Shown: positions 10,809 through 23,124 of the stretch, one piece after another | Numbering within the stretch: the first letter of the stretch is position 1 | Layout of the letters: each line of letters opens with the position of its first letter | Virus record (IMG/VR): IMGVR_UViG_3300035698_015990 | Coordinates: 1-27,278 of that record | Origin: a virus | Length of the DNA stretch: 27,278 nucleotides | Reading direction: 5' to 3' (one strand) | Program-made: the position numbers and the translations under genes | The notes under the pieces: generated by a model | The model's database searches: none | What the model was told of the DNA's origin: nothing | Seen by the model: the letters and a program-made list of their open reading frames with translations, nothing else

Positions 10809-11330
10809 ATGAAATTTTTAATCATAATAATATTATCAACAATAACATCCTATGCTAATCATATTGCATATTCATATAATAAAGATGGTGCTTACGTTGG
10901 CAATGTTAAATGCCAAATAGATCAACTTGACGGTGGATATCTAACACCAGCTAAAGCAACACTGATGAAGCCTCCAAGCGTTTTAATAAACGAGATAGCT
11001 GTTTTCAACGGATCTGAGTGGGAAAAGAAGTTAGATTTTAGGGGTGCTTATTGGTCTAAAATAACAAAAATTAAAACAAGTATAATAGAAATAGGAATAA
11101 GTATTTCGGGAGATTTAACACCATTAGAGCCTACAAATAAATATCATATTTGGGGCGAATCTTCATGGGTTATAGACGAAGCAACAAAAAAAGAAGATGA
11201 GGCGAAAGAACAAGTTAGGGTTGACGCTAAAAATTTATTGAAAGATAAAAAAGGTAAGGTTAAAAATCTTTCCAAGTCTGAATTGGATGACCTAATTGGG
11301 GCTATTTTAATTTTAATAGTAGGAGAATAG
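10809..11330 (+). CDS. Exported tail fibre assembly-like protein
   Basis: This 173-residue protein begins MKFLIIIILSTITSYA, a signal peptide with an SYA-type cleavage site. The body contains KPPSVLINEIAVFNGSEWEK and a later NKYHIWGESSWVIDEATKKE. This resembles the tail-fibre assembly/cap proteins that usually follow fibre genes, whose C-terminal part carries a W-xx-D helix-leading motif. The C-terminal quarter is a charged helical region. Strong AGGAGA site. If it assists the preceding collar protein, both would have to meet in the periplasm, which is consistent since both carry signals. Function is inferred from motif style and gene order. Confidence 0.55.
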   Translation: MKFLIIIILSTITSYANHIAYSYNKDGAYVGNVKCQIDQLDGGYLTPAKATLMKPPSVLINEIAVFNGSEWEKKLDFRGAYWSKITKIKTSIIEIGISISGDLTPLEPTNKYHIWGESSWVIDEATKKEDEAKEQVRVDAKNLLKDKKGKVKNLSKSELDDLIGAILILIVGE

Positions 11331-13828: not shown

Positions 13829-14319
13829 TATTTCCACCTTTTTGTTATTACTGAAGTTTCAACAGTCGCGGCTGTAGATCCAACAGAACTAACTTGAACT
13901 TGAAATTGAACATAGTTTATAAGCCTGTCTAGATCCCAAGAAACAAAAACTTTTTGGTCTGAATCAACATTAAATTCGTAATATTGATCCTCTACTTTTA
14001 CATCTGCGGCGCTTACTGTTTTTATAGGGAAGTTAAATTCATCTGCATGGGCTGTTGAGTGCTTTACTAGCGCTCTTACTCGCATGTTAGCTGAATCGTT
14101 TACAACTAGATTTAAATAATTTCCTATATTTGAAAAACCACTAACAGCAACTTCACTTCCAAGATCTGCCCATGATGCGCTAAAGCTTTGAGATGATCCA
14201 ACTAATGTAATTGCTGAAGGGCCTTCAAGATTTTTTAGTGAAAGAATTTGTGATGCAGTCTTATATTCTGCGCTTAAAGAAAGTGACATAAATAAAATAA
14301 GTGTAAGTAAATGTTTCAT
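13828..14319 (-). CDS. Exported beta-rich phage structural protein
   Basis: The start is ATG 14319 with GGAG 6 nt upstream. The residues before it (from TTG 14331) would overlap that site. The 163-residue product has a signal (MKHLLTLILFMSLSLSAEYK) followed by a beta-domain typical of phage proteins: SFSASWADLGSEV, NIGNYLNLVVNDSANMRVRA, and a C-terminal YVQFQVQVSSVGSTAATVET. In relatives this domain type occurs in virion surface proteins. It is the fourth virion-like protein with a Sec signal in this window. It leads a two-gene minus-strand unit from a promoter at 14346-14373. Confidence 0.65.
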   Translation of the reverse strand: MKHLLTLILFMSLSLSAEYKTASQILSLKNLEGPSAITLVGSSQSFSASWADLGSEVAVSGFSNIGNYLNLVVNDSANMRVRALVKHSTAHADEFNFPIKTVSAADVKVEDQYYEFNVDSDQKVFVSWDLDRLINYVQFQVQVSSVGSTAATVETSVITKRWK

Positions 14320-20804: not shown

Positions 20805-20864
20805 ACCAATTTCAACCGACGTTCTTTTCCAAAAAGCCTTGATATTTCAGGGCTTTCTTTTTTT
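20805..20864 (+). ncRNA. Candidate small terminated RNA or attenuated leader
   Basis: The stretch from the predicted start near 20805 to the U-run contains no start codon with a plausible ribosome site and ends in a strong terminator. It could be a short RNA of about 60 nt, or a leader from which transcription of the replication genes is released by antitermination. Inferred only from signals. Confidence 0.5.
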
Positions 20865-20865
20865 C
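20833..20865 (+). terminator. Intrinsic terminator in replication leader
   Basis: AAAGCCTTGA (20833-20842) pairs with TCAGGGCTTT (20847-20856) around a TATT loop in a 10-bp stem (one G:U), followed by CTTTTTTTCC. It lies about 35 nt downstream of a strong promoter. Confidence 0.9.
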
Positions 20866-20899
20866 CTTGCTCTTTATTTTAAAATAAATTATATTGTTT

Positions 20900-20927: not shown

Positions 20928-20943
20928 GTAGCCTTCGGGCTTT

Positions 20944-20997
20944 AAAAGGGTGCCTAAATTCCAATTCCCAATTGCATTGGCACCCTTTTATATTTTT
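20944..20997 (+). terminator. Second terminator/attenuator before the initiator gene
   Basis: AAAAGGGTGCC (20944-20954) pairs with GGCACCCTTTT (20979-20989), an 11-bp stem with a 24-nt loop holding a nested CAATT-CCC-AATTG hairpin. ATATTTTTA follows. It ends one base before the AGGAGGGG ribosome site of the initiator gene, the classic place for an attenuator. Confidence 0.8.
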
Positions 20998-21008: not shown

Positions 21009-21785
21009 TTGAAGTGGTTTAAGCACTTATCAACTGCGGGCGAATCAACGTCAATTAATAACTTAATAGATAGTCATGGATTAAAATATTATGCTCATTA
21101 TTTTTTATTAGTCGAATTATTGGCTGAAAAATATGATGGGCAAAGTGACACGGTTGAACTAAACTTAAATGTAATTGGTCGCAAAGTTAGAATAAAGTTT
21201 ACCAAAAGTTTGACAACTTTCTTACAACTCTTGCCCAACTTCTTCACCATTTCTGTTTCAATTTGTGACAAAACTTGCACGATTAAATATCCTAAGTTGT
21301 TGGAAATAAAAGATAACCACACAAAAAACTTGCAAGCAACTTGCCGAAAAAAAGCAAGCAACTTGCCCCTAGATAAAGATAAAGATAAAGATAAAGATAA
21401 AGATAAAGAAGAAGACAAAAAGAAGAAGCCAGAAAAGGTATTTTCTGATGTCGTTATTTCTTTAACAGAATCTTTTGTTGGCTTGTTAAAAGAAAACGAC
21501 AGTAAAATTAAAATACCGTCTAATCTTGATAAATGGAAACATCAAATGAGATTTTTAATTGAAACCGACAGAAGAACACAAGAAGAGATTTTACAAGTTA
21601 TGAAATCTTGCTTAACAAACTCTTTTTGGAAGAAGAATATTTTATCGGTTCCAAAATTTAGAGCAAAATTCACACAACTAAAATTAAATATGGAGGAAGA
21701 CACGTATGGAAAGCATAAAACATTTAAAACAAGAGCTCTTGAACAACCTAGCATGGACTATTCGAATGAAGAAAATAACACCTGA
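21009..21785 (+). CDS. Phage replication initiator (replisome-organiser-like)
   Basis: The start is TTG 21009 after AGGAGGGG, giving 258 residues. The N-terminal domain (MKWFKHLSTAG, then HGLKYYAHYFLLVELLAE) matches winged-helix replisome organisers of the DUF4373/lambda O-like kind. A charged repeat linker (residues 122-132, Asp/Lys) joins it to a helical C-terminal domain (SNLDKWKHQMRFLI, WKKNILSVPKFRAKFTQL), which would bind helicase or loader. Short DNA repeats inside the gene (21327-21407) resemble origin iterons. It overlaps the loader gene by 80 nt. Function is inferred from fold pattern and gene order. Confidence 0.75.
   Translation: MKWFKHLSTAGESTSINNLIDSHGLKYYAHYFLLVELLAEKYDGQSDTVELNLNVIGRKVRIKFTKSLTTFLQLLPNFFTISVSICDKTCTIKYPKLLEIKDNHTKNLQATCRKKASNLPLDKDKDKDKDKDKEEDKKKKPEKVFSDVVISLTESFVGLLKENDSKIKIPSNLDKWKHQMRFLIETDRRTQEEILQVMKSCLTNSFWKKNILSVPKFRAKFTQLKLNMEEDTYGKHKTFKTRALEQPSMDYSNEENNT
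21327..21367 (+). repeat. Iteron-like repeats inside the initiator gene
   Basis: GCAAGCAACTTGCC occurs at 21332-21345 and 21354-21367, a 22-bp period; each is itself near-palindromic (GCAAG-CAA-CTTGC). A third AACTTGC is at 21327-21333 and a fourth at 21272-21278. Confidence 0.8.
21372..21407 (+). repeat. GATAAA x6 tandem repeat
   Basis: Six perfect copies of GATAAA run from 21372 to 21407 and encode the Asp-Lys linker of the initiator protein. AT-rich short repeats like these can vary in copy number and melt easily. Confidence 0.95.
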
Positions 21786-22626
21786 AGAAGCTGAAAAAAT
21801 TGTTGAAAAACAATTAGGTGTTTTAATAACAGAATATCCATTTTTAAAAGATCAAAAATATAATATTGGAAGAAATATTGATTTCAACCATGTGATAAAA
21901 TCAATAGAAGAAAAATGTAATAATTGTCTTTATGATTCTAATTATGAAAAAAAACAAGAACCATATAGCTCAACGTGTCCAACAAAATTATCAATTATTA
22001 GAGAAAATTTATTTGAAAATAAAAAGAGTTGTTATAAAGAAAACATGTGTTCTTTTATTGCTAGTCTACCATTGAAATATAAATATTGTAATTTTGATAA
22101 CTTCAAGATAAATACTCTAAACGGAAAAACGATTGACGCACTTATTAGATATTCAAAAACATGTTTTCAGGAATCCGACAAAACGGGTTTTATGTTGATG
22201 GGTGGATATGGAACTGGAAAAACACATCTTGCGATATCTGTTTTAAAAAACATTATCAAAAAAACCAATCTAACATCGCATATAATTTCAATTAGCAATC
22301 TGCTGAATGAAATGAAAAAAACATTTAGTGAAAACGAGAATCCCGATAAAGGCTTAATAAGGGCGGCGAACGCTGATGCTCTAGTTGTCTTTGATGATCT
22401 GGGAGCAGAAAAAAGCACAGAATGGGTTATTGAGCAACTTTATTTATTAATAAACAAGAGATATGAAAATGAAACACCAACAATTTTTACAACAAATTTA
22501 AACATTAAAGAACTTGAAAATAAGATTGGTAAAAGAATCGTAAGTAGAATTTATGAAATGTGTAGTATTCATGTTTTACAAGGCTTGGATTATAGGAAAA
22601 GATTAAAAGAAAAAATAAATTCTTAA
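21706..22626 (+). CDS. DnaC-like AAA+ helicase loader
   Basis: This 306-residue protein loads replicative helicase onto the origin. Walker A is GGYGTGKT (166-173), Walker B LVVFDD (226-231, then LGAEKST), sensor I is TTN (262-264), and RIVSRIYEM near 277-285 holds the arginine-finger region. The N-terminal third has cysteines 71, 74, 91, 109 and 115, arranged like a zinc-binding domain. GGAGG lies about 9 nt before the ATG, inside the initiator gene, which it overlaps by 80 nt. It follows the initiator, the usual partner order. Confidence 0.88.
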   Translation: MESIKHLKQELLNNLAWTIRMKKITPEEAEKIVEKQLGVLITEYPFLKDQKYNIGRNIDFNHVIKSIEEKCNNCLYDSNYEKKQEPYSSTCPTKLSIIRENLFENKKSCYKENMCSFIASLPLKYKYCNFDNFKINTLNGKTIDALIRYSKTCFQESDKTGFMLMGGYGTGKTHLAISVLKNIIKKTNLTSHIISISNLLNEMKKTFSENENPDKGLIRAANADALVVFDDLGAEKSTEWVIEQLYLLINKRYENETPTIFTTNLNIKELENKIGKRIVSRIYEMCSIHVLQGLDYRKRLKEKINS

Positions 22627-22647: not shown

Positions 22648-23124
22648 ATGAGAATAACAAAAGAAAAACTAAAAGCTTTAAGGCCATGCGAAGATAGGTG
22701 GAAATCTTATCTTAAGCATTACAAAAATTGGAGTGGTAGCTTTGGAGAGTTCTTAAGCTTAAAAGAAATATCAAGCGCAGATAAGATATGGGTTTTTTCA
22801 AAGCTAAAAGAAATCTCAGATGAGAAGAAAAGAAGGTTTGCTTTTTTATGCGCCGATAGAGCTGTTTTTGAAACTGATGTGCAGGAGGTTAAAGACTTCT
22901 TTATGTTAGTTCTTTTCCAGTATGAAGCTGGTTATCTTCAAGAACGTGATAATGATTACAGAGCGGCAGACTGGGCGGCATACAGGGCGGCATACAGGGC
23001 GGCAGACATGGCAGCATGCAGGGCGGCATACGGGGCGGCAGACAGGGCAGCAGACTGGGCGGCAGACGGGGCGGCAGAGCAACTTATACAAATAGATATA
23101 ATTAGATATGTTTTAAATATGTAA
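22648..23124 (+). CDS. Phage protein with alanine-rich tandem repeat tail
   Basis: This 158-residue protein has a non-repeated part (about residues 1-104) containing WKSYLKHYKNWSGSFGEFLS, then EKKRRFAFLCADRAVF. A tail built of four-residue units A-A-(D/Y/C)-(R/W/M/G) (about 106-145) follows. Similar small phage proteins with Ala/Arg/Trp repeats exist, but I know no function. The tail would be a helix with aromatic and charged positions on one face. The coding DNA is a 12-bp tandem repeat much richer in GC than its surroundings. Confidence 0.7.
   Translation: MRITKEKLKALRPCEDRWKSYLKHYKNWSGSFGEFLSLKEISSADKIWVFSKLKEISDEKKRRFAFLCADRAVFETDVQEVKDFFMLVLFQYEAGYLQERDNDYRAADWAAYRAAYRAADMAACRAAYGAADRAADWAADGAAEQLIQIDIIRYVLNM
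22963..23078 (+). repeat. 12-bp tandem repeat, about 9.7 copies
   Basis: The unit is GCGGCA followed by TACAGG, GACTGG or close variants. It runs nine full times (22963-23070) plus a partial one. It encodes the Ala-Ala-x-x units of the preceding gene and leaves the reverse strand open by composition, not because of genes there. Confidence 0.95.

Follow-up and report, generated by a model that had tools for sequence, protein, structure and literature searches.

Initiator gene and genomic context

The window, by which we mean the whole stretch of DNA that was analyzed (27,278 nucleotides), comes from an uncultivated phage and forms a record of 27.3 kb. The gene annotated as encoding its initiator (replisome organizer) occupies 21009–21785 on the plus strand, starts with TTG downstream of an AGGAGG sequence, has a GC content of 31%, and encodes a product of 258 amino acids. 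The protein was divided into an N-terminal winged-helix domain (aa 1 to ~105), a linker (aa ~106–145), and a DnaD/replisome-organizer-like C-terminal part. In profile searches, the C-terminal half matched phrog_4880 (replisome organizer, E 5.6e-23) and phrog_2514 (DnaD-like helicase loader, E 8.7e-22), by which the C-terminal domain qualifies as DnaD-like or replisome organizer, and the "O-like" profile phrog_391 matched at aa 105–239 only; no Pfam match to the protein was found at E ≤ 0.1. An AlphaFold2 model of the N-domain, built from a 31-row alignment, gave a winged helix (mean pLDDT 83.6) with helices at residues 53–60 and 65–77 and strands at 82–86 and 89–93. When this model was used in a fold search, winged helices of many families tied, with no decisive match.

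A DnaC-like helicase loader (AAA+ ATPase; phrog_50, E 3.3e-52; IstB-like PF01695, E 7e-14) is encoded at 21706–22626 on the same strand, and the true start of its gene may be an ATG near 21766. RecT and YqaJ genes lie near the initiator/loader pair. A close search with the loader gene as the query gave no relatives. Two terminator-like hairpins (20834–20870 and 20943–20990, the second being AAAAGGGTGCC...GGCACCCTTTT) were noted in the gap that precedes the initiator gene, and a 12-/36-bp tandem repeat of 10 copies (22957–23078), within the ORF at 22648–23124, encodes an Ala-rich (D/Y)RAA-type repeat. GC skew was also seen in the window and tracks gene orientation.

Array B and the adjoining AT-rich tract

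Within the initiator gene, array B (21328–21371, plus strand) consists of four 11-bp units, ACTTGCAAGCA / ACTTGCCGAAA / AAAAGCAAGCA / ACTTGCCCCTA, with the palindromic core CTTGCAAG. In the window it is degenerate, comprising one full unit and three half-units. We propose that these units are initiator-binding iterons; binding is inferred, with no binding data. An initial annotation of this DNA had reported a repeat with a 22-bp period, and exact copies of GCAAGCAACTTGCC were indeed located at 21332–21345 and 21354–21367, 22 bp apart. For this and later tests, nulls were generated by synonymous recoding, with each protein and its codon usage held constant. Identity at lag 22 over 21327–21370 was 16/22, compared with 8.9 ± 1.8 in the null (p < 5e-5), and when the protein was recoded synonymously 400 times, the exact 14-nt repeat within 60 nt was equalled 3 times. 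Although the repeats are real, 22 bp was rejected as the basic unit: 11 bp is the rule in the family, 22 bp represents two 11-bp units, and the array begins half a unit earlier than annotated, at 21328. Taken alone, array B of the window was not significant in the lag-11 test (p = 0.23), because units 2–4 are half-sites.

The same annotation had listed two further AACTTGC copies and a GATAAA array, and both were recovered. AACTTGC occurs at 21272, 21327, 21338, and 21360, and six copies of GATAAA fill 21372–21407 directly after array B; as annotated, all of these repeats lie inside the coding sequence of the probable initiator (21009–21785). The GATAAA copies form the beginning of an AT-rich, purine-rich tract (21372–21440, plus strand) that is proposed to be the unwinding element. 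Its AT excess over the prediction from protein and codon usage reached a z of only +0.9; a gene at 31% GC leaves little room. Elsewhere in the window, AACTTG is repeated 3.5 times at 13891–13911, in another gene region.

Conservation of the layout in relatives

Relatives were collected by N-domain alignment scans (48 viral and 4 bacterial relatives) and by one IMG/VR scan, which gave 370 relatives. In the first relative (L002/L013), whose N-domain is 35% identical, three tandem ACTTGCAAGCG-type units followed by GATAAA occupy the same place. Scanning IMG/VR with CTTGCAAGCRACTTGCAA at the DNA level alone returned six contigs; in five, four of which are distinct, the match falls in initiator-like genes. 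Hits in an exonuclease-like gene (L007) and a tail-fibre-like gene (L011) were taken as chance. Tandem 11-bp units were present at the corresponding position of the gene in relatives at 21–42% identity, and inspection of the DNA placed them in most relatives at one codon position, directly after the winged-helix domain. The linker between the protein domains, which had been put forward as the natural place for the repeats, was borne out in this way, and the absence of conserved iterons from relatives, named in advance as grounds for refutation, was not what was found. By eye, units were weak or absent in several relatives (L047, L049, and L064).

The core varies by phage: besides TTGCAA, we observed TTGGAA/TTCCAA, TCCGGA (several units in L053), CTTTAAAG (L059), GCGCGC (L033), TCAGGA (L029), GTAC (L035), and, in cultured Vibrio and E. 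coli phages, TCATGA. The cultured-phage members of the Lin1244/Lin1753-like group carry 11-bp TCATGA or TCCGGA units and adjoin DnaB, loader, or P-like genes; mEp515 (L065), on E. coli K-12, is among the cultured phages with this layout. Peptides encoded at the units differ (NLQ, KSGQ, KARK, and HDSVM), whereas the DNA layout is constant. Tandem repeats do arise by slippage, yet functionless repeats left by recent replication slippage or tandem duplication are scarcely credible here, as the comparative data already contradict this: the units sit at the same codon in relatives at 21–42% identity, their cores change coherently, and CTTGCAAG is still kept in a phage of 55% GC (L027).

The AT-rich version of the tract is not universal. 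In L004, a DnaD-like initiator related to that of the window in the C-domain only, ~20 DK repeats (2800–2920) are coded as GACAAG and not GATAAA, so that what persists is the purine tract or DK peptide, and not the AT-richness. Among bacterial genomes, one class gave matches in 3 of 274, too few to use. Inspection of translations, without a formal test, suggested that C-terminal domains look unrelated between relatives. By analogy with RepA_N plasmids, this would fit a cassette of N-domain and origin with exchangeable helicase-recruiting ends.

Family-wide statistics

When 36 genes were aligned at the linker, identity at lags 11 and 22 rose at 0 to +30 (array B) and at −160 to −70 (array A, described below). 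Among ~75 non-redundant initiators, lags 11, 22, and 33 reached p ≤ 0.05 in 27/75, 23/75, and 12/75 genes, and other lags in 2–6/75; for 67 other genes of the same loci, used as a control, the corresponding counts at lags 11, 22, and 33 were 0/67, 1/67, and 0/67. Two sets that had no part in finding the pattern agreed with it. In 36 new viral genes, lag 11 was significant (p ≤ 0.05) in 16, lag 22 in 11, and lag 33 in 9, with other lags in 0–5; in 19 cultured-phage genes, lag 11 was found in 9/19 and lag 10 in 10/19 as well. The phages are mutually related, and the lag counts are not independent trials. What relatedness cannot explain is the coherent change of the core between phages. Unit 2 matched unit 1 of its own gene at 6.3 of 11 positions and the units of other phages at 4.1 of 11 (p < 5e-5), and for the 21 genes without a TTGCAA core the values were 5.4 and 3.4. 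Own-unit matches exceed other-phage matches, indicating that the units of one phage change together; the same test at lags 8–20 except 11 gave nothing.

Comparison of synonymous change across relatives, proposed in the initial annotation as a check, revealed codon-level conservation at array B and at 21291–21308 and almost nowhere else. Codon identity was in excess in two stretches, CCT AAn TTA TTG (A/G)AA ATA and, in array B, AAA AAC TTG CAA Gnn ACT TGC AAG; across the rest of the domain, apart from single columns, the excess mostly stayed close to zero. In 18 of 36 genes, the hexamer read in frame at the first unit is perfectly palindromic, compared with 1.5% in the background. AT content over the 60 nt that follow array B was higher than expected from peptide and codon usage in 29 of 35 genes (mean z +1.33), the excess peaking at +40 to +80 from the anchor.

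These data bear on whether the pattern might be a protein feature, namely a conserved linker peptide (NLQATCK) followed by a low-complexity DK/EK/EV repeat. The peptide does look conserved between the window, L013, and L027. However, 11 is not a multiple of 3, so neighboring units are read out of frame with one another, which rules out a repeat in the protein; the two copies of the 14-mer are read as (L)QATC(R) and ASNLP, respectively. Protein-preserving synonymous nulls failed to yield lag 11, peptides differ while the DNA layout stays, and codons are conserved beyond usage. The protein-repeat explanation was rejected on the basis of the frame and the synonymous nulls, and a protein feature of any kind remains very improbable. 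We infer instead that the linker peptide (NLQATC..., then DKDK...) owes its sequence mostly to the DNA that it must carry.

A second array in the coding sequence of the DNA-binding domain

The candidate origin had initially been delimited to 21272–21407, which takes in array B, but a second 11-bp array lies further upstream, outside these limits. This array A (about 21153–21278, plus strand) comprises ~10 phased 11-bp units, in register, and codes for the HTH helix, recognition helix, and wing. The clearest units in the window are AAAGTT at 21183, 21194, and 21205 and AACTT/AACTC/AACTT at 21215, 21226, and 21237, and array A of the window alone was significant at lag 11 (p = 0.0026). Family-wide, lags 11 and 22 were in excess at −174 to −60 nt from the anchor, a region that, on the AlphaFold2 model, encodes residues ~48 to 86 (HTH, likely recognition helix, and first wing strand). 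In the own-versus-other test over the same region, own matches at the center were 5.0–5.5 and other matches 3.1–3.3, and the signal stopped before −54. Similarity between arrays A and B within one phage was only weak (p 0.009–0.1, depending on the choice of k-mer). Array A is not universal either: the Lin1244-type group (TCATGA core), to which mEp515 belongs, has array B without array A.

Array A encodes helices, and the period of an α-helix is 10.8 nt; phased GAA/GGAAA is also present in some relatives (L030 and L034). An ~11-nt periodicity from amphipathic helices, or intrinsic curvature from phased A-tracts, could on these grounds account for array A without binding sites. We consider this unlikely, given that the nulls keep the protein, that the control genes gave 0/67, that the own-versus-other difference was significant (p < 5e-5), and that units match literally over many copies, as in L038 (CAATCTCTGCA CAATCTCCGAC TAATCTCTGTA ...). 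Curvature as a partial role of array A is not excluded. Taken together, the comparisons demonstrate DNA-level constraint on the putative 11-bp sites of both arrays.

A more tentative possibility, which we do not favor beyond a working hypothesis, is that array A is part of an array read by the same helix and wing that it encodes, reader and site being one sequence. Were this so, a change of specificity would have to occur in bases that protein and sites share, altering both, and such changes would have taken place repeatedly in the family, as the array B cores TTGCAA, TCCGGA, TTGGAA, and CTTTAAAG and a matching turnover of array A would imply.

The codon-conserved motif CCTAAGTTGTTGGAAATA (21291–21308, plus strand; encoding PKLLEI) lies between the two arrays. 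Observed versus expected codon identity was 0.73 versus 0.28 for CCT, 0.48 versus 0.18 for TTG, 0.94 versus 0.53 for (A/G)AA, and 0.65 versus 0.34 for ATA, and CCTAAnTTATTGnAAATA, at these positions and in relatives, is codon-conserved even in GC-rich phages. No function was assigned to this CCTAA motif, and a resemblance to an IHF site is no more than a guess. In some relatives, such as L021, CCTAAnTTATTGnAAATA sits in the inverted repeat ATCCCTAA...TTTAGGGAT.

Interpretation as a probable intragenic replication origin

Tandem direct repeats in the linker region of the initiator and, at the level of the family, an adjoining AT-rich tract satisfy the sequence criteria for an intragenic iteron origin. 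We consider it highly probable that this stretch is the core of a phage replication origin inside its own initiator gene, although binding and origin activity are inferred and the evidence is confined to sequence. The evidence is strong for an iteron origin within the gene, one that would work in the manner of lambda ori/O and the RepA_N plasmid origins (pSK41). In the proposed mechanism, the N-domain would bind successive 11-bp units on both arrays as a cooperative complex, one unit per helical turn placing all subunits on one face of the DNA; the complex would then wrap or strain the DNA, the A-rich tract adjoining array B would open, and the DnaD-like C-terminal part, together with the DnaC-like loader, would bring in the host replicative helicase. 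Binding, opening, and loading are all inferred by analogy with lambda (PMC7466680) and pSK41 (PMC5703833).

The units might alternatively be an autoregulatory operator or another protein-binding array (autorepression, silencing, partition, or packaging), with the origin elsewhere. Repressors also use such repeats and origin activity has not been shown, but the mid-gene position, the tie to the initiator N-domain across relatives, and the adjoining tract of AT excess all speak for the origin; the same plan is the origin in lambda O (PMC7466680) and pSK41 rep (PMC5703833), and a tandem-repeat scan of the window found no further array resembling iterons close to a replication gene. An operator in place of an origin is consequently given little weight.

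Origins inside initiator genes are already known from lambda O and pSK41. Lambda iterons are four in number and ~18 bp each. The comparison with lambda made in the initial annotation is valid as far as layout goes, the iterons and the AT-rich tract both lying in the linker that joins the DNA-binding domain to the C-terminal one. It fails for iteron length and for protein family; the lambda O profile (Phage_rep_O, PF04492) had no hit to the window protein or the relatives searched. In lambda and lambdoid phages, iterons and an AT-rich tract lie in the middle of gene O, beside the loader gene, and no array within the code for the lambda DNA-binding domain is mentioned (PMC7466680). RepA_N initiators (pSK41 and pTZ2162 RepA; PLE RepA) bind direct repeats with inverted sub-repeats through a winged-helix N-domain; in pSK41, four Rep boxes occupy the center of rep, with the linker encoded by the origin DNA, and the C-terminal domain of RepA_N plasmid initiators is host-specific (PMC5703833, PMC7145576). 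The N-domain model aligned to 4pql, 4pt7, and 5kbj, which are N-domains of staphylococcal RepA_N initiators (Z 7.1–7.3, rmsd 2.9–3.1, 86–90 residues), with these scores mixed among unrelated winged helices; this model-based likeness is suggestive only, and the RepA_N profile PF06970 did not match the window protein or 10 relatives at E ≤ 0.1. The window differs from RepA_N systems in its 11-bp units with a palindromic core, in a second array running through the code for the DNA-binding domain, and in belonging to a phage and not a plasmid.

Relatives above the cut-off for the Lin1244/Lin1753-like N-terminal profile (DUF4373, PF14297) included L053 (E 6.4e-6) and L014 (E 8.4e-6), others falling just below; the window protein had no match at E ≤ 0.1, and its N-domain is 42% identical to L061 (alignment A2). 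We found no described origin for Lin1244_N/DUF4373 phage proteins, and no paper on DUF4373 or Lin1244 in phages, in a literature search from which subscription journals were largely missing. Within that coverage, the 11-bp palindromic-core iteron rule for Lin1244_N/DUF4373-related phage initiators, the coherent diversification of iterons, and the second array in DNA encoding DNA-reading elements all appear to be new. The putative origin layout is common to dozens of distantly related phages, and the repeat sequence differs from phage to phage. Out-of-frame 11-bp units after a winged-helix domain, followed by an AT-rich tract, provide a rule by which origins can be predicted from sequence across a large family of phage initiators, which numbers hundreds of members in IMG/VR. 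Dozens of natural initiator–iteron pairs with different cores also form a data set for change of initiator specificity, and the cultured phages with this layout, including mEp515 on E. coli K-12, make the predictions directly testable.

Initiator-like proteins with a different N-terminal sequence (L005, minus strand, 11291–11308; L010/L012) have tandem TGCAAGCA-type units of ~10–11 bp in the middle of the gene, from which the layout may extend beyond this initiator family. In the Lin1244-type group (L169–L248 and L065–L083), a strong signal at lags 10, 20, and 25 follows the 11-bp units at nt ~390–430 of the initiator gene and was assigned by eye to a 5-bp GATTA tract (AGATTAGATTAGATAAG) that is likewise out of frame.
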